A stretch of 64,000 nucleotides of DNA from Macrotis lagotis (Eukaryota; Chordata; Mammalia; Peramelemorphia; Peramelidae), in NCBI RefSeq assembly GCF_037893015.1, contig NC_133666.1:623731352-623795351 (forward strand), written 5' to 3'. Numbering within the stretch: position 1 is the stretch's first letter; every line of letters starts with the position of its first letter. Positions 25,336 to 61,689 of the stretch are shown here, one piece after another. The translations under genes were made by a program, and so were the position numbers. The notes beneath the pieces are model-generated. The model saw only the letters and a program-made list of their open reading frames with translations, did no database searches and had not been told where the DNA came from.

Positions 25336-25457
25336 TCAAAAGATCAAAACCATAATGGTAAATAGGATGTTGACAGCCATGATCTTCAGCAGCAGCAGTC
25401 TCAAACCCAGCAGTCCAAGGAGCACTTTGTTCCCTTGCTCAGGTCCTGGTATCCCTG
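25336..25457 (-). CDS. TRMC: TCR mu constant region exon 3 (transmembrane)
   Basis: Encodes the membrane anchor and ends the protein. After a short linker (AGIPGPEQGNK) comes VLLGLLGLRLLLLKIMAVNI and LFTIMVLIF, then TGA at 25338-25336. The Arg and Lys set five residues apart in the hydrophobic stretch, and the GLR-K-AVN-LF pattern, match the TCR delta/alpha transmembrane segment, which contacts acidic residues of CD3. The cytoplasmic tail is essentially absent, as in other TCR chains. The acceptor is TCTCTTGTAG|, before 25457; a second AG three bases further in would drop one residue without changing frame. The phase 1 start matches the connecting-peptide exon. The intron before it is 3657 bases and filled with SINEs. 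Confidence 0.93.
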
Positions 25458-25859
25458 CTACAAGAGAGAAATATACTGAACAATGAGACATCTCAGAATC
25501 TGAGTGCAAGGAAAATGATACCCTAAACAATGACTTTTTCCAGGTACTGAGTCCTATGATATCACAGACTCTGAGCAATGAGCTATCACACACTCTGAGC
25601 TGAAGCTATCAAATACTTGGTTATTCCAACCTTTTGTCCTGGGCTAACACAAACATTGAAAATGAGTCACTGAACCCTTTTCCTAGGTAATCAGACATTC
25701 CAATTCTTGGGTTATTGCAAACCCTGAGCTTGAGAAAGTCACATACTCCAAAATATGGCTTTGTCTTCTCAACCCCTAGGAAAACATGATATGTTTTGAA
25801 CTCTGGCTTTTTTCATTTCTTCAAGATTTCACTCATCTCTTTGTTGAACTTACATTCAT

Positions 25860-27545
25860 TCAAAATGTACCATATTAGGTGCTGAGAGAGATATAATGTT
25901 CTAATGATATATAGTATCTTTTACAAAGCTGACAGTTCAGTAGGGGCCTAAGGCACACACATATATAACTATAATATACAATATTATACAAGTACATTAG
26001 AGAAATGCAAAACAAACTGCTTTGTGAAGTCAGAGGGGGAGATTCTTTTGGAATAGGAGCTTCTAGGGAGAATTAAATTTGACTTAAAAGATTGAGTAAG
26101 AATTCAACAATCCAAAGGGGTCTGGACATTGAGAGGTTATTGAAAACATATGGAAAAAATTGAGGAAATGTAAAAGAGGGAACAGATATGTGGTATGTTC
26201 AGTGGGTCAGGAGCAGGCTAGACTAATGAGAACTTAGAGTATATGGAGGAGAGTAACATGAGACCAGAATGGCATTAGATGGTGAAAGACCTTGAATGCA
26301 AAACAGCAGAGTTTGATTTTATATGTATATATTTACATATCTTTAGATAGAGAGGTGGGACTGATAGACAATGGATAGATAGTGGGAAGGTGGGAAGATA
26401 TATCAGGGAAATATCTCAATAGTCCAGGAACATGATGATTAGGGCCTTTACTAATAAGATGACAATAAGATTCAAGACATAATACAGAAGTAAAAGATGT
26501 TGTAGAAACAGAATTGGCATGACTTGGGACTCAGTGACTAATTAAAGTAAGACTGAAGAGAGTTGAAAAATCAACAGTCACCCCAAGGATACATCAAAGG
26601 AAGAGTAAACTGAATAGCAGCAGAACAAGGGGGAAAGTTATCAAAAATAGGGGGAAAGCACATAAGCTTCATTTTAGATGTTAAATTTGAGGGATCAGTG
26701 AGCTACCGGATAGATATGTTCTGAAGATGTTTACAGCTGTGGTTTGGAGAGTCATAAGAGAGGTAAAGGCCTGGAGCTACAAATTATGAGTCAGCAGCAG
26801 ACTCGGTAGTGGAGCTAGGACAGTGAATGAGATTGACAAAGGAAAGAGTCAAGAGAAGAGAAGAAAGTCCAGGACTGACCCTTAAGGTTTATCTACACTA
26901 AAGAGGGTCCAGAGAGGAAGAGAGAGGAAACTCAATTAGAAAGGGAAATGAAAAATAAAGATAATATAACATCTTTGGAGGACAGTGGAATAGAAAGTAT
27001 TCAGTCATAGGTAATCTGTGCAAAAAGTTGCAGATAGATCAAAGGAGAATAGAGACTGAAAGAGATCTCTGGATTTGTTGGTTATAAAGTCACTGAGAAA
27101 ACTCACTATATTGAGAAGAGTGTGAAAGACAAATAGGAAAGGGCTTGGGGAGAAAGTGACTAGAGAGTTAGTGATGGAAAACTAGAATTCTAAGAGCAAA
27201 GAGAAGAAGAAGGAGGTGGATAATTAAGGTAAAGGAGTTTGGGAAGACCTAAGTATGACATCAGAGGAAAGAAACTGGGAGTAAAAGGCACTGGAGCTGG
27301 ACAAGGCTCTGGAGGAAGCAGAAGGTGATGACTCAATGTAAGAGATAGCACCAGAGATGCCTCACAGAGTGATGAAATAGAAAGAATAGAGTCAATTTGG
27401 GCCTCCCTGCCCCAAGTTTTTCACCAATCAAACTTATTCTCAACAAACACCAAACTGAGTTTTCTGTAATGAAGAGCTAACACAGGTTGGAATCCAGCCT
27501 CTAACATTTACTGTGTTGTTGTTCAGTCATTTCAGTCATGTGTGA
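25860..27545 (-). mobile_element. CR1/L2-clade LINE remnant, antisense (in the TRMC intron)
   Basis: The purine-rich sequence follows the same motif order as 44985-47760 (aatgagaacttagagtatatggagg, agaccttgaatgcaaaacagcagag, gatagaca-aaggagaa). It occupies the intron between the connecting-peptide and TM exons. A BovB-like fragment (ttgttgttcagtcatttcag) ends it near 27520. Confidence 0.5.
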
Positions 27546-28065
27546 CTCTCAGCATGAGCATGAGATGGAGAACCAAGAAGGAGATTGCTCACATAGGAGG
27601 GCCTCAGGCTCCTTAAGGAAATAGAATGCTAAGAAGTCTTCCAAAGCTCTGGGAGATGTGCGTTGATAAGGGGGGTAGAGGAGAAGAGTAAGTTTGAAAC
27701 TGTTTCTATAGGAAATAAAGATAGTGATGAGGACAGGATTTATTTTACTATTAGAGGGAAATTCTGAGTGTAAATCCATCCACCAATGCAGTTGTAAATT
27801 ATTATATTAAAGAGTAGCCTAGAGTAATAATGTGCTTAAGGGTGGAGATATATATATTAGAAGTAGGATTTAAGTCCAGGTTTTCCTAACTTGAAATTCC
27901 ACTCTCTATCTACTCTGTTGAGGAAAAAACTATTGAATAAATATAATTTCAGAGCCAAAATCCTGCTAAGGTACTATTGCATAATGAATAAAATTAATGC
28001 AGTTTTGAGATTTCCTCCACTAAGACTCCCAACAGGAGGAGCAGAGAATGAAAAAGGTGAGACCT

Positions 28066-28221
28066 GGGGTGGCTAGGTGGCATAGTGGATAAAGCACTGG
28101 CCTTGGAGTCAGGAGTACCTGAGTTCAAATCCGACCTCAGACACTTAATAATTACCTAGCTGTGTGGCCTTGGGCAAGCCACTTAACCCCATTTGCCTTG
28201 CAAAAATTAAAAAAAAAAAAG
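28066..28221 (+). mobile_element. SINE (family 1), TRMC intron
   Basis: Nearly intact copy (ggggtggctaggtggcatag, gttcaaatccgacctcagac, A tail). It is antisense to TRMC. Confidence 0.94.
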
Positions 28222-28390
28222 GAGCTACTTAGGCATAAAGAGCAGCTGAGAAGGTCAAGAATAAAAAGGGGCTATTCCCCAATATGATCCTGGACTAGGA
28301 TATTCCCTGAATTTTGGATCTTTATGACCCTGAAGGTCTAGGCCAGTGGTGGGAAACCTTTTATCTACCAAGGTCCATTTGGATATTTTG

Positions 28391-28560
28391 GGGGGGGGGT
28401 GCGGCTAGGTGGAGCAGTGAATAGAGCACAGGCCTTGGAGTCAGGAGTACCTGGGTTCAAATCCAACCTCAGACACTAATTACTTAGCCGCCCGGCCTTG
28501 GGCAAGCCACTTAGCCCCATTGCCTTGAAAAATCTAAAAAAATAAAAATAAAAAAAAAAC
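28391..28560 (+). mobile_element. SINE (family 1), TRMC intron
   Basis: The second copy in a row, after a G tract: gcggctaggtggagcagtg to an A-rich tail. Confidence 0.9.
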
Positions 28561-28733
28561 ATCATTTGCAGGTTATACAAAATTAACAACTTGAAAATTA
28601 ACCTGCTATATTTGGTCAAACAGTGGCAATGTCAGACCAAATGATTTTGCAGGCTTTATAAGATCTCTGCCCCAGACTAGGTTATCACTCTACAAATCTG
28701 AGCCATTATTCACACTGAGTCCTCCTGAATATA

Positions 28734-28737
<4 letters not shown>

Positions 28738-28767
<30 letters not shown>

Positions 28768-28907
28768 TTTTTGCAAGGCAATGGGGTTAAGTGGCTTGCC
28801 CAAGGCCACACAGCTAGGTAATTATTAAGTATCTGAGGACTGATTTGAACTCAGATACCCCTGACTCCAGGGCCAGTGCTCTGTCCACTGCGCCACCTAG
28901 CCACCCC
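28738..28907 (-). mobile_element. SINE (family 1), antisense, TRMC intron
   Basis: Long poly(T) tract followed by the complete complement (ttttgcaaggcaatggggtt to cacctagccacccc). The flanking repeat tgaatatactctt / tgaatatattctt supports insertion. Confidence 0.93.
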
Positions 28908-29114
28908 ATTGAATATATTCTTGAGCCTTGAACCATCATATATACCCAGGCTGCTGGTATCATGCTCTGTGATGGCTATGGCCATAAGGAACCCCAGAGA
29001 ATCATATTATCAGAGTGGAAGACATGAAGCTATCAGACTGGTTGAATTGTTTCCCTTCTGATCAAGTTGCTTAAAGTCAATCTCATTATCTCTTCCCTTT
29101 CACCTTTCACCCAC

Positions 29115-29168
29115 CTGTGAGTTCCTGGTCATGGCAGGATGGTTCCAGCTGAGGAGTGATCCCAGTAT
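29115..29168 (-). CDS. TRMC: TCR mu constant region exon 2 (connecting peptide)
   Basis: A short exon of 54 bases encodes DTGITPQLEPSCHDQELT, the hinge between the C domain and the membrane. The single cysteine in PSCHD sits where TCR alpha and delta chains have the cysteine for the interchain disulfide. The acceptor is TGTCTTGAG| (before 29168) and the donor ACAG|GTGGGT (after 29115), with both ends in phase 1. A nearer AG at about 29150 (CTCAG|CTGG) would shift the frame and hit TGA, so the upstream acceptor was chosen. Too short to be found as an ORF; recognised by phase, position between C and TM exons, and the SCH motif. Confidence 0.78.
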
Positions 29169-29556
29169 CTCAAGACAGAAATATATAATCAGCCACAGCC
29201 TTGGAGTGAGTTGAGGACTTTCTTTCCTAGCCCAGGACTTCCCTCTCTAGGTCAGGACACCCTTCATGAGCCACTTTCTTCCCTCATCTATCCTAGCAAT
29301 CTCATTTCCTATTTATGGATTCCTTTCTCCACCCCCCCCCAGTCAGGAAACACTGGTCTGTAATAGCTCTTTCTGCTCAAAATCTAGCTCCAGTCTAGAC
29401 CCTGTATTCCCTAATCAAGGACTTCCTCTTCTTTTCCCTCAATTTATCATCCAATCTCTGTTTCTTTCTCTCAATGATCCAGGAAACACTTCCAAAGTTT
29501 AAGATGCCCCTTCTTGGTACCACCACCCCCCATACCCAGTCAAGAACTGCTCATAC

Positions 29557-29820
29557 CTGGATGGTAGGACACAAGGATCTCTTTCCCAAGGTGCTGCACT
29601 GAGCAGGTTACTGAATCATTCTCACCAATCCTGCCTATCTGAATGGCACTGTAGGTGCCATGGGCTACAGGAGCCAAAGTAAGGGACTGAGTTGAGAATG
29701 AGGCTTTAGGTGATACCAGGGACATATGGAGTTCCTTGGGATAGAAGTCACTGACCAAGCAGGCCACAGCATCCTGACTCCTCACCAGGAAAACACTGGG
29801 TGACAGATGGGCACGAGGTC
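29557..29820 (-). CDS. TRMC: TCR mu constant region exon 1 (Ig C domain)
   Basis: Encodes the extracellular C1-set domain of the mu chain, 87 full codons from PRAHLSPSVFLV to ILVSYHP. The acceptor TTGATTGCAG| precedes base 29820, and the donor CCAG|GTATGAG follows 29557. Both ends are phase 1, matching Vmu-j upstream. Diagnostic motifs are PSVF, VACLVSDFYPKE with the first Cys, and NDSVTCSVQHLGKE with the second. These closely follow the TCR delta constant pattern (PSVF, VACLV-FYPK, NSVTCSVQH). As in TCR delta, there is no Trp in the middle strand. One sequon (NDS) is present. The open frame runs upstream into the intron, so the acceptor, not an ATG, sets the start. Being next to Vmu-j identifies it as mu and not delta. 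Confidence 0.95.
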
Positions 29821-30470
29821 CTGCAATCAAGCCATGATTTCCTGTCACTCATCTGGTCACTACAGAGCACCCTAGCAGCCAGCAACCCAGATGCAAAAGT
29901 GGGAAGGCAAATGTGACCAAATAACAGTAACTAGAAAACCTCACCCACTTCCTGCCCCACCCAGCCCAGACCTGGCCCCCGTGTGGGAAGCAAATGCATG
30001 AAACCAAGTAACTGTGAAAAAAAACATCAACCTTGTTTCCCATCCCTCTGTCACCTGAACCCCATGTGTGGGAGGTGAATTCATGTGATCAAATAACTGA
30101 AAACTAGACCTCAGCCCCAGCTCCCTGGCCCCAGACCAAGACTGGCTCTGACACCCCCCCAGCTCACATCCTGTTGCTGCACCCCAGACCACAGTCCCTT
30201 TTCTGTCTTCCAACTTCCCCCCATTTCTGGCTTCCCTTGGGGTTGATAATTCACTGGATTTATCCATTAGTCTTATTACACTGGGATCTCAAATCCTTCA
30301 ATTGCCTAACACAATCCATGCCCAGAAATTCCTATCCAGAGTGGATGTTCACCCAGCACTCTGTGGTAGAGAGAAGGGTCTGAGAAATTCTAGTCTGGAC
30401 ACCAGCAATATGTGACCTAGGACCAGACCAAGGTCTATTTCTCTAAAACAGAGACAGAGACCATACTCAC

Positions 30471-30824
30471 CAGGTTCCACAGTCACATTTGTCCCAGAAC
30501 CAAAGACCATCTTGTCTGTATCACTTCCATCACCCACCCTTCTTGTACAATGATAGTAGCCCGAGTCTCCAAAGCTAAGGTCCATAATATGGAGAAAAAT
30601 CTGACTGCTGTTATCTTCCCTACTAGAAGTGATGCGGTCCTCTCTGGCTTCTGAAAAATTGCTCTCAAAGTTGGTCAGCCACAATGGGGGATGTCCAGGG
30701 GTCCAAAGGTACCAACCTAATCGGCTTATATTAAACTGAAAGCCAGATACTTGACACTTGAGGTTCAGGATGCTTCCAGAGAGGTGCTGACCTCCCCCTG
30801 ACTCTTTCAGCAGTGTCTCATCTC
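30471..30824 (-). CDS. TRMVj: Germline-joined V domain exon (Vmu-j)
   Basis: A single exon encodes a whole V domain with its CDR3 and J already fused in the genome. It is the membrane-proximal V of the TCR mu chain. The acceptor is CTGTAG| (30830-30825) and the donor CCTG|GTGAGT (30470-30465). Exon length is 354, with phase 1 at both ends. The 117 residues begin DETLLKESGGG and have Cys23 (LKCQVS), Trp37 (LGWYLW), the DSGYYHC motif with Cys92, a 14-residue germline CDR3 (TRRVGDGSDTDKMV), FGSG at 107-110 and TNVTVEP at the end. No stop, no adjoining RSS and no leader exon or signal peptide are seen, consistent with use only as an internal domain spliced after J. Four N-glycosylation sequons occur, at residues 31, 55, 71 and 112. 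Known: in TCR mu this second V has little diversity and probably supports the distal V. Confidence 0.95.
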
Positions 30825-31460
30825 CTACAGAGGAAAAAAGGTGATGGGAGCAGAGTAAGTAGGGACAAATAATCCATCTCTCCTCTTAAAAGTGAAGATC
30901 TTGAGTCCTTGAATCTCCTAAATGCTATTCTGCCCTAGACCCTTTACCCCTCCTCCAGGACTTTAGATACCAAAGTCAGGGACCAATTCTCTTTAAATAT
31001 ATAATAGAAAAAGAAATGGAAGATGTGAATCCCATGGTTACAGGAAAGGGCAAGCATCATCATTGACAAGGTTTCAGGGGGTTCCCCAGATTAGAGTTGT
31101 TTCTAGGATTGGGGCAGGGAATTCCCTGAGTGCAACAATTTCTCAGGTTTAGGGAATTTTGGGAGTTTGCAAGTGCCTAAAATCAGGAGGGGGATAATTA
31201 GATGCCTTTGGGTTCTTAGGTTTGGGATTCAAAGATTTGGGGAGTGGCTAGGTTTGGAGGTTCCTGGAGTGATGAGTTTGGGATATCCTAGCATTAAGAG
31301 ATAGGACTGACTGTGGGAAATGAGCCACATAATCACACAGGTTTGGATAAAGGATGACTGAGGTCATCAGTCCAGTCCAAGATTCCTCCCTCAATCCTGT
31401 AGCTTTGGAATGGTCCAATGCCCATCTTCCCCCACCCCTGTTGGAAATATGAAAACTTAC

Positions 31461-31510
31461 GTGAGAGTACAGTCACTTCTGTTCCAGGACCAAAGTTTTC
31501 CCATTGAGCT
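31461..31510 (-). CDS. TRMJ: TCR mu J segment
   Basis: This joining segment encodes AQWENFGPGTEVTVLS plus one base. The FGPG motif is the diagnostic J bulge (F/W-G-X-G). A 12-bp RSS abuts its 5' end. The 3' end is a splice donor, TCAC|GTAAGT on the minus strand. It ends in phase 1, exactly the phase in which the germline-joined V exon 636 bases downstream begins (C plus GA gives Arg). The product of V-D-J joining is therefore spliced to Vmu-j rather than directly to a constant exon, as known for TCR mu. No second J was found between this one and the V exon, so cluster A appears to have a single J. Confidence 0.92.
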
Positions 31511-31538
31511 CACTGTGTCACAGGAAAGAACCAAAACC
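31511..31538 (-). promoter_or_regulatory. 12-bp RSS of J
   Basis: On the plus strand, away from J: cactgtg (31511-31517), a 12-base spacer (31518-31529) and accaaaacc (31530-31538). In gene orientation this is GGTTTTGGT, 12 bp, CACAGTG directly before J. Each motif is one base from the J-side consensus. Confidence 0.92.
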
Positions 31539-33172
31539 ATTCATCTTAGGAAGGGCCGGAGGAACATGAGGTGGCAGGAAGTAGGTTGGAGTCAGGCTCA
31601 TGGGAACATACCAAGTTCATGAAGCCCCAGTAAAGTAAAGGAATTAGGAGACCTGAATTTAAGTCTGACTCTACCATTAACAGACTGTATCATCATGGGA
31701 AAGTCATAACTCTTCATTGTCCTAGGAAATTTTCTGAGACTAAGTTGCATCCATCAGGAGAATTTCCTCTGAGAATTTCCTATGTCAAAAAAATCATAGA
31801 ACTGGTGATTTACAGTAATATATATGTATGTATGTATGTATATATAAGTGGTGATTTACATATTGGGTTCTGGTCAAGAGTAGGTCTAAGGAGGTTCAGA
31901 GATCCCTCCAGGGTCCTTTCCTTGTTAGTATTCCAGGAAGTTAGTATTCCCCACTGGGGAAAGCTGGTCTTTGTCAAACTTCAGAATGACTATTGAGACA
32001 ATTCCTGGGATGACGATACATTTTTCATTTCTCAGTCTAACTCTGAAAGATTGAGTTAAAGTAATGACTGGGTACAACTTGGAAAAGGAAAAGGTGATTA
32101 CAAAAAGTCAACACAGCCTCATCTAGATCTGGTCACACCAGGCAACTTCATGGTGGTGACCATGGTAACCTGCTACAGATACAGATACAGTTTACCTAGA
32201 TTTTTAACAAGACTTTTTGACAAAGTATCTTATACTATTCTTGTGGGGAAAATAAAGAGATGTAGACCGGATGATAAGAGGGTTAGATGGATTCAGAGTT
32301 AGCTAGATGGTTGGACTCACAGTAGTTATTGATAGTTCCATGTCAATGTGGCAGTAGGTCTCCAGTAGAGAGTCCCAGGTATCTGTGACCCTTTGTGCGG
32401 CTTAATATTTTCATTAATTATTTGTGAAACAGGAAACTGGAACATTGACAAGACCACTGGTGTACTCCATTGAAGGAAATTCCCCATCTGGAGGAGGTTA
32501 GAGAACTTTGTTCCAGGAAGTACTTTGGAGAGACTATGGATCATGCATAGACATTCTGTAACTGCTTCTGATCTGCTAATCATGTGGCTAGGAGGATCCT
32601 TTGTCCACTGGTTGTCTAGACAGAAAGCTGTCACCTTTAGCCTAGTATCCGTGCCTCCTTCTCTTCTCTCTTCTCTTGAGAGATGTTGTTAACTTCACTC
32701 ACCATGTCTACCAAGAGACAGAAGGGAGGATATTTGAAGATTTCCCACTGGGACCATGTGACCCTTGCCTTGGTTCTTGGCCTCTGCACTTGTTCTTTTC
32801 CCATTTTAGATAAAGAAATATGACTTCCTATCAAGTGAGCTTCACAAGATCCAGAGTACTCTCTACCTCACTGGTATTCTTATCTGGGTTTTGCACCATG
32901 TCCAGAGTTGCAAGAAATAATCTTTGGGAGTGTCCTTTTTGGAACAGGTCAGTGATTGCTGACATAGGTTGCATCTGAATATGGTCTCATCAAGACCAAC
33001 ATTACATAAAAATTGAATAAAGAGGTGTATGTTTTTTTCTTTTAATAGCTCCAGTAAAAAACGTCTCTTCTTAAAAACTCATAGATGTGTTAAATGGAAC
33101 TGAGATGCTAGTTGTGGTACCTAATAGTAGGGAGGAGGGGGATACATTTAGAGGCAATTCAATCCACTGACA

Positions 33173-33175
<3 letters not shown>

Positions 33176-33252
<77 letters not shown>
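33176..33252. repeat. (CA)n microsatellite
   Basis: About 38 CA units with one interruption. Confidence 0.97.
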
Positions 33253-33253
<1 letters not shown>

Positions 33254-33569
33254 AGACTAAAATGTTTACAGTTGCCCCAGAACCCAGAGTAGGAGGTATA
33301 GCCTACTGGATTCTCAGAGAGTGAGCCAGAGTTTATATACTACATTTAAATAAAGGCCTCACTAACAGCTAATACAGCAGATGATAGTTAGAAGTCAATA
33401 AGGTTTTGACAGATTAGAGAATTGGGTTAAAACTAAGAAGATAAAATTCCACAAGGATTAATGTAAAGTCTTATGCTTGGGTACCCTCCCTCCAAAAAAA
33501 ATCAGCTTCAAAAGAGAAAGGAGAGGTATTGTTGGACAAAAGCTAATCTGAAAAGATCAGGAGGCTCAA

Positions 33570-34280
33570 GTGAATTGTAAGCTTATTAGCAATCAGAAGT
33601 TATCACTAAGTCTGTATCTCAAAGAGATCATAAAAAAGGGGGAAAAGACCTATATGTACAAAAATATTAATAGAAGTTCTTTTTTGTGTGGCAAAGAATT
33701 GGAAATTGAGGTGATTGATGCTCATGAATTGAGATATGACTGAATAAATTATATGAATGTAATGGAATATTGTTGTTCCATGAGAAATGATGAGCAGACA
33801 TATTTCAGAGAAACTGGGAAAGATTTACATGGACTGATATTGAGTGAAGTGTGCAGAAGCAAGAGAACATTGTACATAGTAACAGCAACATTGCATGATG
33901 ATTGACTATGATAAACTTAACTTTTCTCAACCATACGGTGATCAAAGACAATTTCAAAACTTATGATGGGAAATACCATCCACATTCAGAGAAAGAACTA
34001 TGGAGTCTGAATGCAGATCAAAGCATACTATTTTCACTTTTTTTAATTGTTTTTTGTTTATTTTTTCCTCATGATTTTTCCCTTTTATTCTCAGTCTTCT
34101 TTCAAAGCATGGCTGAAATTGGGAATATGAGTAACTTGATTGTGTATATATAACCTATATCAGATCACTTAGTTTTTTGGGGAGGGAGGGAAAGAAAGAG
34201 GAGGGGATAATTTTTACCAAAATGAATGTTGAAAACTATCTCCACGTGTAATTGGAAAAACTAGAATACATTTTTTTTTA
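33570..34280 (+). mobile_element. L1 3' end remnant
   Basis: Sense L1 3' region, diverged: atggaatattgttgttccatgag, tgagtgaagtgtgcagaagcaag, gtaacagcaacattg, then an A-rich end near 34280. The stretch 31.55-33.5 kb before it shows a MIR-like piece (31640-31740) and no gene. Confidence 0.7.
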
Positions 34281-34729
34281 AAAAAGGAGTCACCAGTGAT
34301 GGAGCAAACAAAAAGTTTACATGATTTTGGTCAACATTTAGTATATCAGGAATTCTAAGAATAAGGAGATAATAGTACTTTTGAACTTTAACCTTGTCAG
34401 ACTCTATTGGGATTTTTTGCCTTCAGTTTGGGCACTCCAGTTTAAAATGGACGTTGATAAATTGGATCAGGTCCAGAGGAGGGCACCCAGGATGATGAAA
34501 AACCTTGAACTCTTGCTATTTAAAGCATGACTGAAGGAACTGGGAATGCTTAATCTGGAAGAAGAGAAAACTCAAGGGGGTCAAAATAATTTTGCTCAAC
34601 TATTGGAAAGCTATCATATGAAAAAAAGAATTAGATTTGTTTTGTGTGGCTCCAGAAAGTAGAAGCAAAGGGGGATTTCAGAGACAAATTAGACTGATAT
34701 CAAGAAAAATTTCACAGTAATAATAATAA

Positions 34730-36060
34730 TAATAACTAGAGTTTATATCTCATTGTAGGGTTGGTGATGCACTTTACATACATAATGTCATTTCATCCTC
34801 ACAACAAAAGAGGTATCATGCTCTATTTTTATAGAGGAAGAAACTGAGACTAAGAGAGGTTAAGTGACTTATCTAGAGACATACAGAAGTAGCTGAGGCA
34901 GTCTTCCTTAACCCATCCTGACAATCAGAATTATACAAAAGTAGAATGGGCTCTTTCAAATAGGCTTTTCCTACTTAGAATCATTGAGCAATTATTGGAT
35001 GATCTGGTCCCTTTTTATCTTTCCAGTCTTCTTACACCCTACTCTTCCCCCACATTCCAGTGACTCTGGTGTCCTTATTCCTCATACAAGACACTCCCAA
35101 CTCCAGACATTATCATTACTTGTCCTCAGTGTCTGGAACTCTCACTCTCCTGCCTTCCTTCAGATCCCAGTTTATATCTAAGCTTCTACAAGAAATCTTT
35201 TCCTCTCTCCCTTAATCTTAGTGTAATCTCTCTGTGATTATCTCTAATTTATTCTGTCTATATCTGTATTGCGACTTTAATGAGGGTCAGATTCATTCCT
35301 GCTCTCAGGCAGTTGAAACTGAAAGTATTTTAATAATGCAAGGAATAGATTGCTTACAATAATATTCAATACAGCAAATAAGATATATATATATATATAT
35401 ATATGAAAGGATTATTAATACTATAACAAAAGTAGAAGAGAAAGACAAAGAAAACATCACCAATTCAGGAGAGTCCCGAATGGGAGAGAAAACATCACCA
35501 ATTCAGGGGAGCACCAGGCAGAATGTCTTCTCCATGGGTGGGATTCCTTTTCTTCTGCTTCTTCTTCTTCATCATCATCTTCATAATAAATGATTGGAGT
35601 CTCAGGATATTTATTAGGGGAGAACAAAGGTTTTTTGCCAAATTCAATTGGAAAGGATCCCAGAATTCTTATCATGAACATAGGAAGTCAGTGTTATGAC
35701 ATTAGGAAGATGTCATGGGGCCGCAAGACACAACATAATTAAGGTCAGTACTGTGAGAATAGCCAGTTCTTTTCAGTACTGTTTGTGTTCCAAGGAATGG
35801 CTAGTTCCTGGGACTCTAAGAACATGGTCAAATCACATAGGACATGTTCCGGGGGGGGAAGGACACGTTCTCATACAGGCTCGAGTGAACTTACTCATAT
35901 AAGAATTTCATTTTCTTATACAATATCTTGCTTGTAAATATTTATTTTCTTATTGTCTCTCCTCCTTGAAAGGAGGAAGTGATTCTTGCCTTACTTTGTA
36001 TTCCCAACTCATAGCGCAGCTACTAGCACATTGTTGATGCATGTTGAATGACTGTTTAGC
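34730..36060 (+). mobile_element. MIR (antisense) then an L2-type 3' end split by an LTR-like insert
   Basis: 34730-34900 is MIR antisense. 34930-35275 carries the L2-type 3' pattern (tttatctttccagtcttcttacaccc, ctggaactctcactctcctgcc), which resumes at about 35930 (cttattgtctctcctccttgaaagg) and runs to 36060. Confidence 0.6.
35440..35925 (-). mobile_element. Solo-LTR-like insertion inside the L2 remnant
   Basis: On the minus strand a U3-like stretch leads to CCTAATAAATATCC, a polyadenylation signal, followed by an R/U5-like segment. It contains a tandem aacatcaccaattcagg pair (about 35450 and 35490). It interrupts an otherwise continuous L2 3' end. Boundaries are approximate. Confidence 0.45.
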
Positions 36061-36174
36061 ATTTTGTAAGATACCTCTTGGGTATGGTTTAAACTACATA
36101 GACCCTGATATCCCTTGCAATTCTAAGAATTCTAAACTTTATTTTGTGTATACTACGGACCTAATGCAGATTGC

Positions 36175-36197
36175 TGTAACCTCGTGTTGAGGTTACA
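36175..36197. repeat. Perfect small inverted repeat
   Basis: tgtaacctc, 5-base loop gtgtt, gaggttaca. A 9-bp hairpin of unknown relevance. Confidence 0.6.
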
Positions 36198-36299
36198 AAG
36201 TATGTTCCCTCCATTGACAGACATTGTCTGAACACATGTATTCCCTGATCCCTCAGTAACCCCAGAGCCTCTGAATTAGAGTCTCTCTCCAGTTTTTCT

Positions 36300-37314: not shown

Positions 37315-37353
37315 AGTTTTTGTAGTAAGAGCCCCAAGGGATGCACTACTGTG
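37315..37353 (-). promoter_or_regulatory. 23-bp RSS on the 3' side of D
   Basis: In gene orientation: heptamer CACAGTA (37353-37347), a 23-base spacer (37346-37324) and nonamer ACAAAAACT (37323-37315). Each motif is one base from consensus. It pairs with the 12-bp RSS of J under the 12/23 rule. Confidence 0.9.
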
Positions 37354-37367
37354 TAGTCTATACCTTC
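37354..37367 (-). other. TRMD: TCR mu D segment
   Basis: This is a 14-base diversity segment, GAAGGTATAGACTA on the minus strand, bracketed by two recombination signals of opposite spacer class: 12 bp on its 5' side and 23 bp on its 3' side. That is the arrangement of TCR delta and beta D segments. It allows V(23)-to-D(12), D(23)-to-J(12) and D-to-D joins. The three reading frames give EGID-like, KV-stop-T and RYRL-like residues, so two of three frames are open. It lies 5.8 kb upstream of J and 23.7 kb downstream of V. It was recognised by the two RSSs; such short segments have no other sequence identity. Confidence 0.86.
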
Positions 37368-37395
37368 CACGTTGATCAAGGACCCCACTAAAACC
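37368..37395 (-). promoter_or_regulatory. 12-bp RSS on the 5' side of D
   Basis: On the plus strand, moving away from D: cacgttg (37368-37374), a 12-base spacer (37375-37386) and actaaaacc (37387-37395). In gene orientation this is nonamer GGTTTTAGT, 12 bp, heptamer CAACGTG. The CAC edge next to the coding end is kept. The nonamer differs from consensus at one base and the heptamer at two. Confidence 0.85.

Positions 37396-37743: not shown

Positions 37744-37744
<1 letters not shown>

Positions 37745-37774
<30 letters not shown>
37745..37774. repeat. (CA)n microsatellite near D
   Basis: CA run between the intact D and its relic, next to a pyrimidine-rich tract at 37600-37710. Confidence 0.95.
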
Positions 37775-49004: not shown

Positions 49005-49193
49005 TTTTTACCCCCTCCATCAGGCTGGCTAGTTTTGCCCCAGTTGTTTCTAGGGTTGTGTCACTGTGGCTTCCACTGATATCAGCACAGTGAGAAATAG
49101 CTCACCCTAAACCCCAGTAGTGACAGAACCAAGGGGATGTACTAAAAGCTTCAGAGGCACCTGTAGAGTCTTCAGAAGTAGTTACTGAAGACA

Positions 49194-51105: not shown

Positions 51106-51399
51106 AATAAAGGAAGTTGGATACTACATAATTATAATGACCAAACTTGTCCTTGTAAAGAAATTAAGAAAATACACTTCCCTTTATAATATAAATAGGA
51201 GGATAACTACATGTATTGGTGATTTTTGTTACTTGAGAAAATTTCTGTCCTATTTACATTCTATTAATAAATATTCTTCCAGCTCTTCCCTTCAAATATC
51301 TCATTCCTTTCCCAATTCTCTTCTCTACCACTCTCATTTTATTTATATCATTTTAAACTCTAAAAAAACTCGATTAATTTTTTCTGAGAATTTTTCTTT

Positions 51400-53098
51400 G
51401 AAAGATTTTTTGTAAATGTTTTGGAGTGTGTCTTAGAATTTCCTGGTTTCATGGGTGTCCTTTTGGTCTGTTTGTCTATTCATTCATTCTTCCAGCTTCC
51501 CTTCTGAACTCTGGACTACTGTATTGTGGCCAAACTGTGTATACTTCCAGAGAATTACCAAGTCTGTTTGTTTTTTTTATCTGAGGTCCTGTTGCATTTT
51601 AGGGGTATTAAATTCTTTGTTCTTCTTAGTTAGTCAGGAATGATTCAGGTCAGGGAGTTGCAAATTTTCAGGAGGACCTAACTAATCTGATCTAGGGTAC
51701 AGTTTGATCCCTGCACTTCTGGTCTGAACTTTTCAAGTTCCAGACCTGCACTTTACATCTAAACAGCACAATTATAGGCATGTCCACAAGAAGAACTCCA
51801 GTAGCTAGGTGCTCCAATACATCAGCCAAGAGGAAGACTGAAAGTTCAGAGAAACAAAACTATAGGGTGAGAGCTTATCTCACAGCCCCAGAGATGATCA
51901 TTTGCCTCTGGATATAGTCAAGATATATAGTAGTCATACTTTCTCCACAATTGAAAAATTCAGTCTTTGACAGTCTCTAGTTTGTTTTGCTAGATTTAGG
52001 GGGATTTTTTGTTCACTTTCTTTTAAAATTTTTGTTACAAAGATGATTCACTGGGTAGGAGAGATGGAGGGGATAGATTGAGAAATGTGATACCAAAAAA
52101 ATTAAAAAATTAAATAAAGAAGTAACAATCTCCCTGTTTGATAGTAGATAGTTTTTACAACCTTGATTATCCCTCCTTATTCATGTTATAACAAAGAAGG
52201 TTATAGCATACCATAAAGATACTTTACAACACACACTAGAGTTGGGAATCTCCAGAAAATAGCTTGTGCATACCTCTAGAATTTGTTACTTAATGTCTCA
52301 AGGAGAAATCTTCCCAGTCAGGAAGAAATGAATTTCTCCCACAATTTGGACTGAAGTGAGGAGGAGTGAGCCAGTTAGTCAATAAAAAATTAATAAACAT
52401 CTACTATATGCTCTATATGAAATACTAGGATAAAGATGAAGCAATAGTTTTGGGGTTTTTTTAAAGGAGGGTAGAAATGTCTTTAATAGGATTAGAGTGC
52501 TAAGGAAAAAATTGGAAAACAAATGAGAGCTATGAGAGAAAGAAAAAGAAAGAGAAACAACAGCACGGCTCAAAAGGTGATAAATCTTGCCAAAGGAATT
52601 AACTCTGAAAATTAGAATGAACAAAATAGAATCCAATGTCTTCATGAAGCAACAAGAAATTTTAAAACAAACTCAAAAAACTGAAAAAAATGGAGTAAAA
52701 TGTAAGGTATCTCACAGCAAAAATAGCTGATATAGCAAAAAGATCAAGGAGAAAAGAATTAGGAAAAATTAAATTCTCAGAACACCATAACTAAAAAAAA
52801 AAGAGCCTAGACATTCTATTTTTAGTAACCTCAAAAAAACTGCAGACATCTTTTAGCTTCAGAGGATAGAATGGAAATGGAAAGAATACAGTGGTCACTT
52901 CCTAAAAGAAACTCTAAAGTGAAAATGACCAGGAATACCATAGCCAAAATCTAGACTTTTCAGGTCAAATAAAAATATTGTAAGTATCCAGAAAGAAAGA
53001 ATTCAAGTATTAAGGAGCCATAGTAAGGCTGATATATGATTTTAGTAGTTACTAATATAAGGAGGAAAAAACTTGAAATATAAAATTCCAGAAGGCAA

Positions 53099-53140
<42 letters not shown>

Positions 53141-53188
53141 ACAAATAGAGAGAGAGAGAGAGACTTTCAGTCAAGAATAACAATAATG
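51400..53188. mobile_element. L1/HAL1-like fragments
   Basis: 51400-52130 carries L1-type 5' and 3' end pieces. 52440-53100 holds A-rich sense ORF1-type sequence (ggagcctagacattct, gaaaatgaccaggaatacc). All frames are broken. A (CA)n(GA)n run at 53101-53162 ends it. Confidence 0.4.
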
Positions 53189-53338
53189 GGGCAGCTAGGT
53201 GGTGCAGGGAATAGAGCACTGACCCTGGAGTCAGGAGTACCTGAGTTCAAATCCAGCCTCAGACACTTAATAATTACCTAGCTGTGTGGCCTTGGGCAAG
53301 CCACTTAACCCCATTTGCCTTGCAAAAACCTAAAAAAA
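53188..53338 (+). mobile_element. SINE (family 1) with target-site duplication
   Basis: ggggcagctaggtggtgcag to aaaaacctaaaaaaaa. The flanks agaataacaataa / aggataacaataa match. Confidence 0.94.
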
Positions 53339-53929
53339 AGGATAACAATAACTAAACTGAGAGTAATATTAAAGGGCATCATTAATGAACCAAAAGATTT
53401 CCTAATATTCCTGAGGAAAAGACTGGAGTTGGGAGAAACCTTGAAATTCAAACACAGGTTTGAGGAACAGGAAAAAAAAGTAAAAAAGGAATTATAAAGG
53501 AATAAATAAGGGTAAACTGCTTACTTTCAAATATGGGGAAATGAAATATGTCCCCTCCAAACCCTTTCATTATCAGTGTTAGTACAGGAATTCCAATTTG
53601 ACAAGGCCTGGGAGTAGAATCTTAAAATTCTATTTAAGAAAAAATTAGAAAGGGAAAGAGGGATATGCTAATGGGAGAGTGAAAGAGGAGGTTAGGAAAA
53701 TGAATCTCACATAATCAAAGATATAAGTAAATCTCTCTATATAAGTTTGTTCTCATCTGAATTGATCAAAGAATGGAAGAATCTATAAATGTCTAAAGAG
53801 AGTTGAATACAAAAATCCATTTCACCAACAGGAAAAATAGTACAGAAAGAGGAAAAGAGAAGGGAAAGAATCAAAGAGTGGGTAGATTAAGGAGGAGATT
53901 AGTCCCAAGCAAAACAAAACTCTTTTGTC

Positions 53930-55645
53930 ATGATTGTTCAGTCATTCAGTCCTGTCTAACTCTTTGTGACCCCAACGAGCCATTGAATGTCAGGCCTTCT
54001 GTCTTCCACTCTCTCTTGAAGTCTGTCCAAACTCATGTTTATTCTTGTTATACTACCCATCCTTCTCATCCTCTGCTGTCCCCTTCTCCTTTTGCCTTCA
54101 ATCTTTCTCAGCATCTTGGTTTTCTTCAAGGAGTCCTCTCATCTCATTATGTAGACAAAGTATTTAAGCTTCAGTTTCAATATTTGACCTTCCCATGAAT
54201 AGTCTGGATTAATTTTTGTTGCTGACTAACAGACTCTCAAGAGTCTTCTCCAGCACTGCAATTCAAAAGCATCAGTTCTGTAGTACTAAGCTCTCCTTGT
54301 AATCCAACTCGCACAGTCATACTGGGAAAAAAAATTAAAAAAAAAACATAACTTTGATTATATGAACCTTTGTGGGCAAGATGGTGCCTCTGTTTTTTGT
54401 ATGTTCAAATTTACCATAGCTTTCCTTCCAAGGAACAAGCATCTTTTCATTTCAGGGCTGTAGTTGTTGTCTACAGTGATCTTTGAACCCGTGAATATAA
54501 AAATATGGCATTTTTTTCCATTTCTTCTCCCTCTATTTGCCAGGAACTGATGGGATCACTGGCCATAATCTTGGGTCTTTTTTTATGTTAAATTTCAAGT
54601 CAGCTATTACACCCTTCCCTTTTGCTCTCATCAAAAGACTTCTGATTCTTCTTCACTTTATGCCATTAGAGTGGTATCATCTGCATATCGGAATTAACTT
54701 TAATTCTGGTTTGTCCAGTCTTGTATTTCACATTATGTACTCTGAATATAAGTTAAATGAAAAAGGTTACAATATACAACCTTGTCTTACTCCTTTTCCA
54801 ATCTTCAATCAATCAGTTGTTCCATATTCAGTTCCAACTCTTTGTTGTTGCACTTCATACAGGTTCCTCAGGAGAAAAGTGAGGAAATTTGGCACTCCCG
54901 TATTTTTGAGGACTTGTCACATTTGGCTGTGATTCACCCAGTCAAAGGTTTTGTGTAGTCAATGAATAAAATGTAATTGTCTTTCTGGAACTCCCTTGCT
55001 TTCTCTATAATCCAGAAAATGTAGACAATTTGGTTTCTACTTCTTCTATCTCTTCAAAAATCAACTTGCACTTCTGGTGATTCTCAACCTAGCTTGCAAA
55101 ATCTCAAGCATAACCTTGTTGGCATATGAATTGAACTCAATTGTTTGATCATTTAAATATGCTTTGGCATTGTTATTGTTTAAAACTGGGACATAAACTG
55201 ATCTTTTCCTATACTGAGTTTTACAAATTTTCTGGTACATTGAGGTCTGCACCTTTATAGCATCATCTTTTAGGTTTACAAAGCCCAGTTGGAATTCCAT
55301 CATTTCCACTAGCCTTATTGTTGGCAATGCTTCTTAAGATTCACTTGACGGGGCGGCTAGGTGGCACAGTGAATAGAGCACTGGCCCTGAGTTCAAATCT
55401 GACCTCAAACACTTAATAATTACCTAGCTGTGTGGCCTTGGGCAAGCCACTTAACCCCATTTACCTTGCAAAAAACCTAAAAAAAAAAAAAAAGATTCAC
55501 TTGACTTTAATTCTTGATCAGTAATCCCAATATCAGTCACGGTTATTGTTGATGTTAAGATCTTTTTTCTGTAATATTCTTGATACTTCTTCTTAATCTC
55601 TTTTATTTCTATTAGGTCTTTACAGCTTTTGTCATTTATCATGGA
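53930..55645 (-). mobile_element. RTE/BovB-like LINE remnant, antisense
   Basis: The plus strand starts ttgttcagtcattcagtcctg, the well-known 3' motif of BovB-type RTE elements in reverse. The minus strand encodes RTE polymerase fragments such as MLEILQARLRI (55061-55327) and DLIEIKEIKKKYQEYYRKK (55451-55642). The frames are broken by shifts and by a SINE at 55350-55493. No intact ORF remains. Confidence 0.8.
55350..55493 (+). mobile_element. SINE (family 1) inside the RTE-like LINE
   Basis: ggggcggctaggtggcacag to an A tail. The target repeat agattcacttgac lies on both sides, which dates the SINE after the LINE. Confidence 0.95.
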
Positions 55646-55799
55646 GAAATGGAGATCAAGGAGAAAAGAATTAGGAAAAATTAAATTCTCAGAACACCAT
55701 AACTAAAAAAGAGCCCAGATGTTCTATTTTCATGGATACTATGGAATTCTGGAAAGATTTTATTGTCTTTCCCAAATTTTTTCCTTTCTTTTGCAATGC

Positions 55800-55970
55800 T
55801 CATCTAAGAAAAGCTTTTCATCTCATTTCCTCATCTGTAGAATGGAAACACTGTAGAAAAGAAAATGAGAAAGCATCCCAGTATCTTTGCTAAGAAAAGC
55901 CCATGGACAAGTCCATAGCATGGCAAAGAGTCAAACGTAACTGAATGATTCAACAGCAACAACACTAAAA
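55800..55970 (+). repeat. SINE 3' part with BovB/RTE-like tail
   Basis: catttcctcatctgtagaatgg, ccagtatctttgctaagaaaa, gagtcaaacgtaactgaatg. Confidence 0.6.
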
Positions 55971-56399
55971 AGAAGCCTGATGCTTGACCCAAAGAAACTC
56001 TATAGACCTGAAAGAAAATCTTAGGTGGTTCAGAAGCACTGACTCTAGTTACTTGAAATCCAATGGTCTGTAATCCTCCGTAATAACTTTTATCCTTCAA
56101 CAAATTTCACTACAGAAATGAGTTATATGTATATTGGATTTTGTTTTCATCTTATAATGGTAAGGAAGTAATGATGACCATAGAAATATTCATTTAGGAA
56201 ACATTTGTTGATAAATATTGGAAAGTGGGCAGGAGATCCTGATCACTTATTAGAACTGGTCCTACAAATGTAAAATGGTATGCCACACTTTTGTAAACTT
56301 CCTCTATTACCAGTCCCTGATTTCAATGTCTATGTATATCATTTTGTATGTCATTTGTCTGTTTATATCATACTGACTTATCTAAGAAAAGGGAAGAAG

Positions 56400-57110
56400 G
56401 TATGAATTGAAAAAATATTTTATCAAATTTTTTGGATAAAAATCTAATGTTCAAAATCTAGAGAATTAGTGAGCATTCATAAGTCTAATAATAAACAACC
56501 ATATTAAAATATTCCAATTAATACAATAAATTCAAATTAAAAGAACTCTAAAGTATCACTTTTACACACACAAAATTTGAAAAAATAAATAGGGATAGAA
56601 ATAGTTCATGTTGAAGAGGCCACGAGAAGATAAAAAGAATAATTCACTCCCATAGAGATGTGAATTGTTTAAATAAATCCTAGTAGGGAAATCAAGCAGG
56701 AAAAGTTGTTTTCATCAAACAGATTCACTTCTGACACTCTACTATAAGAATTCAAGGGTAGAATAGTCCCATCCATGACAAAATATTCAAAGAAATTCTA
56801 TTTTAGAAGTAGTAAAAAAGCTGGAGACAAAAAACATACCTATTGAATTGAAAATGACTGAACAAATGTTATATGAATGCACTGAAATACTATTGTATCA
56901 CAAGGAAAATGAATATGAAGAATTCATAAAACTCATAAAAATTATATGAATTCTTACAGAATGAAGAAAGCAGATCAAAAAATATATCTAATAACTACAA
57001 TGATATAAATAAACATAGCCCTAAAGACAATCAAATTTAAGGGAACCACAATGACCAGCATTGTTTCTGAAAGCAATAAAATCACACTCATTTTCTTTCA
57101 ATTTGGCAGA
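56400..57110 (+). mobile_element. L1 3' end remnant
   Basis: Degenerate sense L1 sequence (gtgaattgtttaaataaatcc, gaaatactattgtatcac, gaagaaagcagatc). Confidence 0.5.
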
Positions 57111-57234
57111 GGTTTATTATACTTGGGTTTAGTAATTTTTTAGTCTGAGGACTGAGCAGAATGAGTACGTTCCATTCTTTGTTTACAACTCCCTTATTTT
57201 GACACCCTCCTACTACAATCTTTCTTCATTAATC

Positions 57235-59600
57235 TAACTTTTCCTTTTATTTTAAAGTTCATCTATTTTATTTTTTTAACATTCATCCACATGCATATGT
57301 ATATTTTTAAGTTACAAAATTTCTTTCCACCCTCCCTTCCCACCCCAGTCCCTCAGCAGTGAACAGTCAGGCTAACATTGTACATACATATTTTTTATAA
57401 ACATGTTTACAGATTAGTCATTTTGGTATGAGGAATTAGGATTAATGGAAAGAAATGTATAAGCAATAATTTTTATAGTGTTAACCAGATTCTTAAAGGT
57501 TGGGGGTTTTTTTGCTTTTTTTTGTTTTGTTTTGTTTTTCTTCCCCTAGATGGGGATGACATTGTCCATAGCTGGTCTACTGCAATTGTCCTAGCTCTCT
57601 GAACTGATGAGAGAGAACTGCTTCCATCAAGGTTGATCATTTCATAATGTAGTTAATATGCAGAATGTTCTCCATTTGTTCAGCATCAATTCCTATAATT
57701 CATCCAACCATTCATGGTTTCTGTAAGTCATTCCATGCCTCTCTAGAGTGTGACCATTTATTATTTCTTATAGAACAATAATATTCCATAGTATCCATGC
57801 ATCATAACATTTTTAGCCATTCCCCAAATGATGGGTGTCCCCTAGATTTCCAATTCTTTGCCACTACAGAAAGAGCTCCTATGAATATTTTGGAACACAT
57901 GGAACTTTTTCCCATTTTTTATGATTTTTGCTGGATCAAAAGGGAATGAATATCTTTATTGCTCTTTGGGCATAGTTCCATATTGCTCTCCAGAATGGTT
58001 GGATCTATTCACAACTCTATCAAATATATTAATGATCCAATCCTCCCCCAATCTCTCCAACATTAATCATTTTCCCTTTTTCTTATCTTGGTCAATTTGA
58101 GAGGTATAAGGTGATACCTCATAGTTGTTTTAATTTGCATTTTTCTAATAATGATTTGGAACATTTTTTCATATGATTATATATAGGTTTAATTTCTGCA
58201 TTTGAAAACTGTCTATTCATATCCTTTAACCATTCATCAACTGGGAAATGACTTGTGACCTTATAAATTTGATGCAATTCTCTACATATTTTAGAAATGG
58301 AACCTTTATCAGAACTCCTAGTTGTGAAGATTGTTTCCAAGCTTTCTGCTTTTCTTCTCATTTTGGCAGCATTGATTTTATTAGTGCAAAAACTTTTTAA
58401 TTTAATATAATCAGAATCATTTTGCCATTTATAATGTACCCTAATTCTTGTCTGGTCATAAATTTGTCCCCTGTATGTCTAAATTCAGTACTCATTTTGA
58501 CTTTATTTTGGTATAGGGTGTGAGATGTGGGTCCATGCCTAGTTTTTACCAAACTATTTTACACTTTTCCCAACAATTTTTGTTGGGAAATAATGAGTTC
58601 TGATCCCAGAAACTTATGTCTTTGGGTCTGTCAAGCAGTAGATTGTTATAGTCACTAATTGCAGCTTCTTTTTAACCTATCATAATCCACTGATTCATTA
58701 CTCTATTTCTTAACCAGTACCAGGCAGCTTTGATGACTGAAGTTTTATAGTACAATTTTAGATATGGTAGAGCTTTACTTTTTTTTCATCAGTTCCCATG
58801 CTATTCTTGACCTTTTGTTACTCCAGATGAATTTTGTTACTGTTTTTTCTAGCTTGCTAAAACAGTTATTTGGGAGTTTGATTGATATGGCACTGAATAA
58901 GTAATTTAATTTGGGTAGAATTGTCATTTTTATTATATTAGCTTGACCTAACCATGAGCAATTGACATTTTTCCAATTTTTTAGATCTGATTATACTTGG
59001 ATGAGAAGTGCTTTATAATTGTGTTCATACAGTTTCTGGGTTTGTCTTGAGGAGGTAGATTCCCAATTATTCTACAGTGATTTTAAATGGAATTTATCAT
59101 TCTATCTCTTGCTCATGGGCTTTGTTGTTCATATCTAGAAATGCTGGTGATTTATGTGGGTTTATTTTATATCCTGCTACTTTGCTGAATTTGTTAAAGA
59201 GGTTTTTTTAGATGATTTTCTCAGGTTCTCTAAATATACCATCATATCATCTGCAGAGAGTGAAAGCTTTGCTTCCTCATTGCCAATTCTAATTCCTTCA
59301 ATTTTTTTTCTCTAATTGCTGCAGTTAGAATTTCTAATACTATATTGAATAGTAATGGTGATAATAAGCATCCTTGTTTCACCCCTGATTCTATTGGAAA
59401 TGCTCCATGTTTATTCCCATTACATATAATATTTATTGATGGTTTTAGATAGATACTCTTTATTATTTCAAGGAAAACTCCATTTATTCCAAAACTTTCT
59501 AGTGGTTTTTAATAGGAATGGATATTGTGTTTTATCAAAAGTTTCTTCAGCATCTATTGAGATAATCATATGATTTCTAGTCATTTTGCTATTGATATGT
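57235..59600 (-). mobile_element. L1 ORF2 3' half and 3' end, antisense
   Basis: The complement of L1: on the minus strand the fragment DMNRQFSNAEI then NHMKKCSKSLLEKCKLKQ (58119-58361) is the C-terminal part of the L1 ORF2 protein. Upstream plus-strand motifs (atcatctgcagagagtgaaagc, tccttgtttcacccctgattc) match the reverse transcriptase region in reverse. Many stops and shifts are present; not active. Confidence 0.85.
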
Positions 59601-60640
59601 TATGCTATTGATATTAATATATTATGTTGAGTGTTAATATATCTTTTCCCAAGTGAATTACCCAATAAGGACTCTCTTTCACATATTATATAGCTGCCAA
59701 AAGTTACCCATGAGACTGAGCCTTCACATAAGAACACAGAATGGGGAGTCTTTGGGAGGTAAGAGAATAGGATCCAAATGGGATTTAAGTGCACTAGAAC
59801 CACACAGTTGCAGGGAACAGATGACCCTGAGTGTCCCTCCTTCCAGGTCTGAGAGTGAGCTCCTCATATTTGTTGCTTTGTGTACTCCCTGAGTGAGTTT
59901 TGTACAACTTGCTGGTCTGTGGAGCTGCTCATGATCCTGAGTAGAAAGAGTAGTAAAGAAACTTAGTGATGTAAGTAACAGGATATCCCCTCCTCCCTCA
60001 GGGTATGTCAGGGTGAAAGGGAGAGAGAGAGAGAGACAGAGAGACAGAGACAGAGACCCATTATTTAGTGGGTCAAAACTTCCCTGAGGTCATGTAGACC
60101 AGCAAATAGTAATATACTAACCTATATGGGTTGGAGTTGGTGGGGAGGGAGGAATTATTGACCCAACATGGGGCCACTACTCAGGACATTCAGTAGCAAT
60201 TTAGAGAGGCCAGTCTGCCCCTTACTGGATCTATAACACCAAATAAATTTCTTCTCTTTACTAGATTTCAGTTCTGCTTTTTTATATAACTCCAGTAGAG
60301 CAGGGCCTGGGCTTGTTCCTCTGCCAGTTGCAGGGCTAGACTAAAAAATGGAGTAGAGGAGAAATCTTTGAATCAGGACAGGATTTAGGTCTGTATCCAA
60401 GCTGAATGTAGAATTATTTACCCCAGGTTGTCAGTATTTGGCTCTCAGAACCTTGCTTTGGCAAAGGTCTCCTCCTTCCACTCACCTTTAGGATGGTGAT
60501 GGTAGATGAGCAAGACATGAAATAAGTTCAAGGTAATAACTAAAGTGACTGAAAGTATGAAAAGTCAGTAAAAGTTGGAAGAGAACTTTTTCTTCTTATA
60601 AGACATAGAATACAACCTGTCTCTCACCCAATATCCCCTC

Positions 60641-60814
60641 TATCTCTCCCTCTCCCTCTCCCTCTCCCTCTCCGTCTCTGTCTCTGTCTCTCTGTCTCTG
60701 TCTGTGTGTATGTGTGTGTGTCTCTGTCTCTCTCTGTCTCTGTCTCCCTCTGTCTGTCTGTCTGTCTCTCTGTCTCCCTGTCTGTCTCTGTCTCTGTCTG
60801 TCTGTCTCTGTCTC

Positions 60815-60875
<61 letters not shown>
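60641..60875. repeat. (CT)n / (CTGT)n microsatellite
   Basis: 235 bases of CT with TGTC variants, located 130 bases beyond the RSS of the cluster A V gene. Long apparent ORFs here are repeat artefacts. Confidence 0.97.
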
Positions 60876-60876
<1 letters not shown>

Positions 60877-61001
60877 ATCTCTCTCAAAAGCACATGCACT
60901 ACTAGGAGGACTGGTACAAGATCCCAAGATCCTTCATGTGAGTTAACTGGTTGGGTAAAGCAGCAGGTAACTATAGACTCAGTTTCAGTCCCAGTCTAGT
61001 A

Positions 61002-61040
61002 GGTTTATGTGATTGCCTCTACTTTGGCTCCATCATGGTG
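61002..61040 (-). promoter_or_regulatory. 23-bp recombination signal of V (cluster A)
   Basis: Read on the minus strand directly after the V exon: heptamer CACCATG (61040-61034), a 23-base spacer (61033-61011) and nonamer ACATAAACC (61010-61002). The nonamer differs from ACAAAAACC at one base. The heptamer keeps the essential CAC but differs from CACAGTG at positions 4 and 5. By the 12/23 rule this V can join the 12-bp signals found 5' of D and 5' of J in this cluster. Confidence 0.87.
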
Positions 61041-61353
61041 AGGCTAGCACAATAGTAGATGCCAGAGTCCTTCTTCTGCACCTGGCGCAAGATCAATGAG
61101 ACTATATTGTCCTCATTTTTCCTGAAAATGAAAATTCTCCCTTTCAGTTCCTCTCTGTACTCCTTGGTGCTGCCTCTTCCAGCAGTGATGCTAGCCACAA
61201 ACTCCTTTGAGTCTTGAATGCCAGAACTCCGGTGCCAAGACATGGCAAAGTTCTTAAACTGGAGCCCTGAAGCTGTACAGCTCAGGGTCACAGACTGACC
61301 TTCATAGATCATTTTACCACCTTTCTCTACCAGCCGCACTTGGGCCCAGAATC
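61041..61353 (-). CDS. TRMV: TCR mu V gene, cluster A: V exon (antibody-like)
   Basis: Encodes the rearranging, N-terminal variable domain of a TCR mu chain. The acceptor is TTTGCAG| before base 61353 and the exon opens in phase 1, completing Gly and then FWA|QVRLVEKGGK, so the mature domain starts at Gln. The 103 full codons contain the first Ig cysteine (VTLSCTAS), the core Trp in FAMSWHR, and the DSGIYYCAS motif carrying the second cysteine. The FAMSW and KGRIFIFRKNE patterns are IGHV-like, as expected of mu V genes and unlike ordinary alpha/beta V genes. The exon stops at a 23-bp-spacer RSS, so it needs D/J joining. The frame is intact with no stop or missing key residue. Its D, J, Vmu-j and C partners lie downstream on the same strand at 37.4, 31.5, 30.8 and 29.8-25.3 kb. 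An orphan IGHV is the alternative, but the C region downstream is TCR delta-like. Confidence 0.92.
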
Positions 61354-61619
61354 CTGCAAAGGATAAATAGAAGGGTAAGGTCAATTCTCTATTGAGTCAA
61401 CTTAGGAGGAAAATTGCCAGACCAGGACAGAGATCCCTAGGAACAGGATGTCCAGCAGAGGAACACAACTGAGAGAAGGGAGAGCCTAAGCTGCATACCA
61501 ATATCACTAGGGAAGAAAGAAAAACAAAAGGAAAAAGAACTATCTGGGCACTAATTAGAAACTTAGCTCCACACCAGAGGTCCAGAAAGAGGAAAAGAGG
61601 AGGATAAGGACAGAAATAC

Positions 61620-61689
61620 CTGGTAGAATGAAGAGAAGTAATTTCAAAAGATAAATCTTGGCGAGAGTGTTGGGGAGCGTGATTAACAT
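61620..61689 (-). CDS. TRMV: TCR mu V gene, cluster A: leader exon
   Basis: This is the first coding exon of the cluster A V gene. It encodes a 23-codon start of a signal peptide, MLITLPNTL followed by a hydrophobic run KIYLLKLLLFILP, and one extra base, so it ends in phase 1. The start is the ATG at 61689-61687, the only in-frame Met giving a basic-then-hydrophobic leader. The splice donor reads CCAG|GTATTT on the minus strand, directly after base 61620. A 266-bp intron separates it from the V exon. Leader length, phase and the intron before the last leader residues are standard for Ig and TCR V genes. The leader exon of the second V gene at 13201-13270 has the same length and shares the pattern LAxIYLLxxLLxILP. 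Known: such leaders target the chain to the ER. Inferred: expression follows rearrangement in T cells. Confidence 0.9.

Follow-up and report, generated by a model that had tools for sequence, protein, structure and literature searches.

A TCR mu gene cluster, almost certainly complete and marsupial, with the 5' part of a probable tandem neighbor

We identified a T-cell receptor (TCR) mu gene cluster in a 64,000-nucleotide stretch of genomic DNA (contig NC_133666.1; hereafter, the window), which almost certainly contains one complete marsupial TRM cluster followed by the 5' part of the next cluster of a tandem array. The complete cluster runs on the minus strand from position 61689 down to 25336, in the order leader exon, variable (V) exon, two diversity (D) segments, joining (J) segment, a second, germline-joined V exon (Vmuj), constant (C) exon, connecting-peptide exon and transmembrane exon. 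An initial annotation of the window had proposed, within 25336-61689, a V with a 23-bp recombination signal sequence (RSS), a D with 12/23-RSSs, a J with a 12-RSS and joined V, C, connecting-peptide and transmembrane exons, and all of these were found. It had implied a single D without coordinates; a D is indeed present, but there are two (49069-49085 and 37354-37367). The D at 49069-49085 goes beyond that annotation, as do the leader and V exons of the next cluster (13270-12638) and the D of that cluster (3185-3201). TCR mu, a fifth TCR chain, characterizes a third lineage of T cells, which among mammals is described in PMC7615758 as restricted to marsupials and monotremes and lost in placentals. 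A cluster of this kind is already known and is ordinary for a marsupial genome; the exact exon and RSS coordinates can help in designing primers and studying repertoires in the source species and change no current view.

Exons, splice sites and recombination signals of the complete cluster

Exon and RSS boundaries of the cluster were checked a second time. The V gene starts with a 70-nt leader exon (61620-61689; ATG start, donor gtattt), followed by an open, IgHV-like V exon with both Cys residues (61041-61353) and its 23-RSS (61002-61040; CACCATG / ACATAAACC, heptamer 5/7, nonamer 8/9). The first D segment, 17 nt in length (49069-49085), lies between a 5' 12-RSS (49086-49113; 7/7, 6/9) and a 3' 23-RSS (49030-49068; 7/7, 5/9), and the second, of 14 nt (37354-37367), between a 5' 12-RSS (37368-37395; 5/7, 8/9) and a 3' 23-RSS (37315-37353; 6/7, 8/9). 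The J segment (31461-31510; ending in ENFGPGTEVTVLS, donor gtaagt) is preceded by a 12-RSS (31511-31538; minus strand, 5' to 3', GGTTTTGGT - 12 - CACAGTG). Vmuj is a single exon in which V and J are joined in the germline (30471-30824; end FGSGTNVTVEP, donor gtgagt); it is followed by a C1-set C exon (29557-29820; donor gtatga), a connecting-peptide exon with one Cys (29115-29168; EPSCHDQ, acceptor gag, donor gtgggt) and a transmembrane exon (25336-25454), whose helix includes Arg and Lys and which carries a TGA stop. Two traits of marsupial TRM are present: a VH-like V (VH, heavy-chain variable domain) with separate D and J segments carrying 12/23-compatible RSSs, and the germline-joined Vmuj exon between J and C.

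All five donors of the cluster begin with GT and all five acceptors end with AG, with consistent exon phases. When V, D and J were joined in silico, with two bases trimmed in total (the smallest trim enumerated) and none added, and the product was spliced through Vmuj, C, connecting-peptide and transmembrane exons, the result was a single uninterrupted frame of 411-413 amino acids, in agreement with the initial statement that every exon is open. The frame was open in 4/4 combinations of two D segments and two last acceptors; this chain is a computed product, predicted from the sequence. The two acceptor choices arise because the transmembrane exon follows a tagcag tandem acceptor and may begin at either 25457 or 25454; the frame is kept either way, and the products are one residue apart.

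A scan for RSS-like sites (matching the consensus at 13 or more of 16 positions, with the heptamer starting with CAC by construction and matching at 5/7 or more) found 7 sites in the window, whereas 40 Markov-resampled windows had 0.5 on average and never more than 3. Six of the seven sites are located at V, D or J, including the V of the next cluster and a D absent from the initial annotation. The seventh, a 23-RSS-like site at 11582-11620, was rejected because of its location inside a dispersed repeat. Using facing 12- and 23-RSSs, each with at least 11/16 matches, as the definition of a D, we detected three such pairs in the window, each having its 12-RSS on the upstream side when read along the minus strand; 0.025 pairs per window are expected by chance (40 resamplings), and none occurred in 40 further resamplings with narrower spacing. 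Both counts are far above those of the resampled windows. At a laxer threshold of 10, at which 0.35 D pairs per window are expected by chance, a weaker D-like pair appears on the plus strand at 4374-4383 and was not counted.

Similarity to TCR mu chains and published TRM loci

We compared C, Vmuj and V with all PDB chains, and each matched solved TCR mu chains (7k0x, 7k0z, 7l15), as the initial annotation had supposed. The search results name only the molecule; we take these three to be opossum (Monodelphis) chains. They were the best matches of the C exon (118-123 bits), followed by TCR delta (59 bits or less), and also of Vmuj (169-192 bits), and in these comparisons C and Vmuj scored well above TCR delta and antibody chains. 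The V domain reached 119 bits with TCR mu; a three-domain antibody chain stood first in this search by summed score, with 62 bits for its best single domain. In the two Vmuj alignments printed, 117 residues aligned without gaps (167 bits), with a complementarity-determining region 3 (CDR3) of equal length and the common pattern RRVGxGxDTDK(M/L)VFG. Such an ungapped match with equal CDR3 suggests that Vmuj in these chains and in the window was inherited from one ancestral join. Amino acid identity to the PDB TCR mu pieces was 59% for V, 71% for the V of the next cluster, 66% for Vmuj and 69% for C, indicating another species than the presumed opossum or a distant cluster class. V carries Lys and Phe at two interface positions between VH and the light-chain variable domain (presumably 45 and 47), at which the aligned antibody has Leu and Trp. 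These residues fit the likeness of V mu to light-chainless antibody domains described in PMC7615758. Vmuj, judged by eye, retains Trp at the matching place.

The mu gene of marsupials and platypus is mentioned in PMC3820666, and tandem arrays of V-D-J-Vmuj-C clusters have been published in opossum and Tasmanian devil (PMC2275272, PMC7615758). Opossum TRM, described as eight clusters, six of them complete and falling into three classes (PMC2275272), resembles the window in segment order, probable tandem arrangement, VH-like V and delta-like C; D segments number two or three in classes named there, and clusters with two D segments are a further likeness. Tasmanian devil TRM comprises nine clusters, three of them partial, over ~1 Mb (PMC7615758); compared by description, it shares the cluster organization, and the devil has retroelement-like repeats upstream of its clusters. 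Published TRM loci are unlinked to TRA/D and have zinc-finger genes and MOG as flanks; here the flanks and the remainder of the locus fall beyond the window. Shark NAR-TCR, again by description, also combines two V domains with a single C in one TCR chain, but it is regarded as convergent rather than orthologous in PMC2275272 and PMC7615758.

Predicted function and alternative readings

From published work and knowledge of the receptor family, we infer that the cluster would be rearranged and expressed in developing thymocytes. RAG would act on the 23-RSS of V and the 12-RSS upstream of D to attach V to one D segment or to both, and on the 23-RSS downstream of D and the 12-RSS of J to attach D to J, producing a diverse outer V domain. 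After splicing of the V-D-J exon to the invariant Vmuj and on to the exons for C, connecting peptide and transmembrane region, the predicted result is a three-domain chain, whose Vmuj and C may pair with a TCR gamma chain and whose basic transmembrane residues may let it join CD3. The initial proposal of a cluster competent for rearrangement and expression is compatible with the open frames, the splice phases, the 12/23 compatibility and codon constraint on V. The last point comes from a comparison of the first V with that of the next cluster over 101 codons, with 0.29 nonsynonymous (dN) and 1.53 synonymous (dS) substitutions per site; although dS is near saturation, these values suggest constraint on at least one of the two V genes.

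Several details speak against an intact TCR mu cluster as read here or are caveats to it. Two heptamers, CACCATG of V and CACGTTG on the 5' side of the D at 37354, each match the consensus at only 5/7 positions; the connecting-peptide acceptor is GAG instead of the usual CAG or TAG; and at threshold 10 the D at 49069 also has a lower-scoring reading on the opposite strand, which was not counted as a D. Each D of the complete cluster also has a stop in one of three frames, which is common for D segments. The two 5/7 heptamers would fit a TCR mu cluster that is decayed or an orphon and has lost rearrangement, and an orphon TRMV gene is known in opossum (PMC2275272). That gene, however, is described as leaderless and outside the locus, whereas the coding exons in the window are all intact and in phase and the V codons look constrained; we consider a decayed or orphon cluster very unlikely.

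Identification of the genes as TCR delta (TRD), perhaps a set using VH-like V segments, would account for the alignment of C, connecting-peptide and transmembrane exons to full-length TCR delta. This alignment scored at most 76 bits for the three exons together and extends through the Cys of the connecting peptide and both basic residues (Arg, Lys) of the transmembrane helix. This similarity is expected for TCR mu as well, since TCR mu is thought to be derived from TCR delta (PMC7615758). The initial annotation had named a match of the C exon to TRDC, in a locus next to TRAC, as an outcome that would overturn its assignment; the exon proved closest to TCR mu, with the scores given above. Other features against TRD are the germline-joined V exon between J and C, as TRD has a single V domain, and, farther downstream, another V belonging to that family and accompanied by a D-like segment of its own. 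A search of the window with C gave, beyond the single C exon, only chance-level matches (E of 4.6 and above). The TRD identity was rejected as very improbable.

The initial annotation had also ascribed this organization to marsupials and monotremes alike, which is a little too broad. A monotreme TRM cluster is extremely improbable here: Vmuj is 66% identical to a PDB chain that we take to be from opossum, and it is germline-joined. TRM clusters do occur in monotremes, and platypus TRM, as outlined in PMC7615758, resembles the window in having V1-Dn-J1, a second V domain and then C; its second V, however, rearranges (V2-J2) and is not germline-joined. Germline joining of the second V is a feature of marsupials and not of monotremes, and it points to a marsupial as the source of the cluster.

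The next cluster, a leader-like frame and repeats

Downstream of the transmembrane exon of the complete cluster, also on the minus strand, lie the leader exon (13201-13270) and V exon (12638-12948) of the next cluster, the latter with 57% amino acid identity to the first V and followed by a 23-RSS (12599-12637; CACTCTG / ACAAAAACC). The distance between the two leader starts is 48.4 kb. A D-like segment at 3185-3201 on the same strand has a 12-RSS (7/7, 5/9) and a 23-RSS (5/7, 6/9), together spanning 3229-3146; by eye, it is similar to the D at 49069. The tandem content of the window is one complete cluster plus the V and D-like segment of the next, whose J, Vmuj and C would fall beyond the window. 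In a translated search of the window for further V, Vmuj, C and transmembrane relics, the exons described above were recovered and the three V domains matched one another; all other matches were at chance level (E of at least 1.1). Pieces of the leader, J, D and connecting peptide, being too short for such a search, were not sought that way. Promoter motifs before V gave nothing firm, with 0/9 upstream of the first V and 2/9 upstream of the second.

At 30877-30825, an ATG-started leader-like frame of 17 residues (MDYLSLLTLLPSPFFLC) ends directly at Vmuj; no intron separates the two, and their reading frames differ by one base. Opossum Vmuj is described in PMC2275272 as being without the leader intron of V segments, and retrotransposition, or germline joining plus intron loss, was proposed there. 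The frame in the window might be a relic of an intronless Vmuj leader, which we regard as doubtful: an equally good frame was found at 18/577 acceptor-like sites of the window, this one included, so its presence says little for such a relic. If the relic were real, it would support the published loss of the leader intron by Vmuj (by retro-copying, or by germline joining and intron loss), and the cluster would be able to make a two-V chain only.

The window is dense in repeats, with 146 self-matches of at least 80 bases, the V pair itself among them. A LINE-like (long interspersed nuclear element) reverse-transcriptase fragment was found at 59242-59508 (Pfam RVT_1, 1.6e-8). Another LINE-like fragment, at 58119-58478, presumably resembles the end of L1 ORF2 (open reading frame 2); its sole Pfam match is unrelated and below the cut-off. 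An inverted repeat pair (4435-4973 and 10982-11521) is 76% identical over 551 bases, and further partial copies of the repeated element lie near 33.6-33.9 kb and 48.3-48.7 kb.
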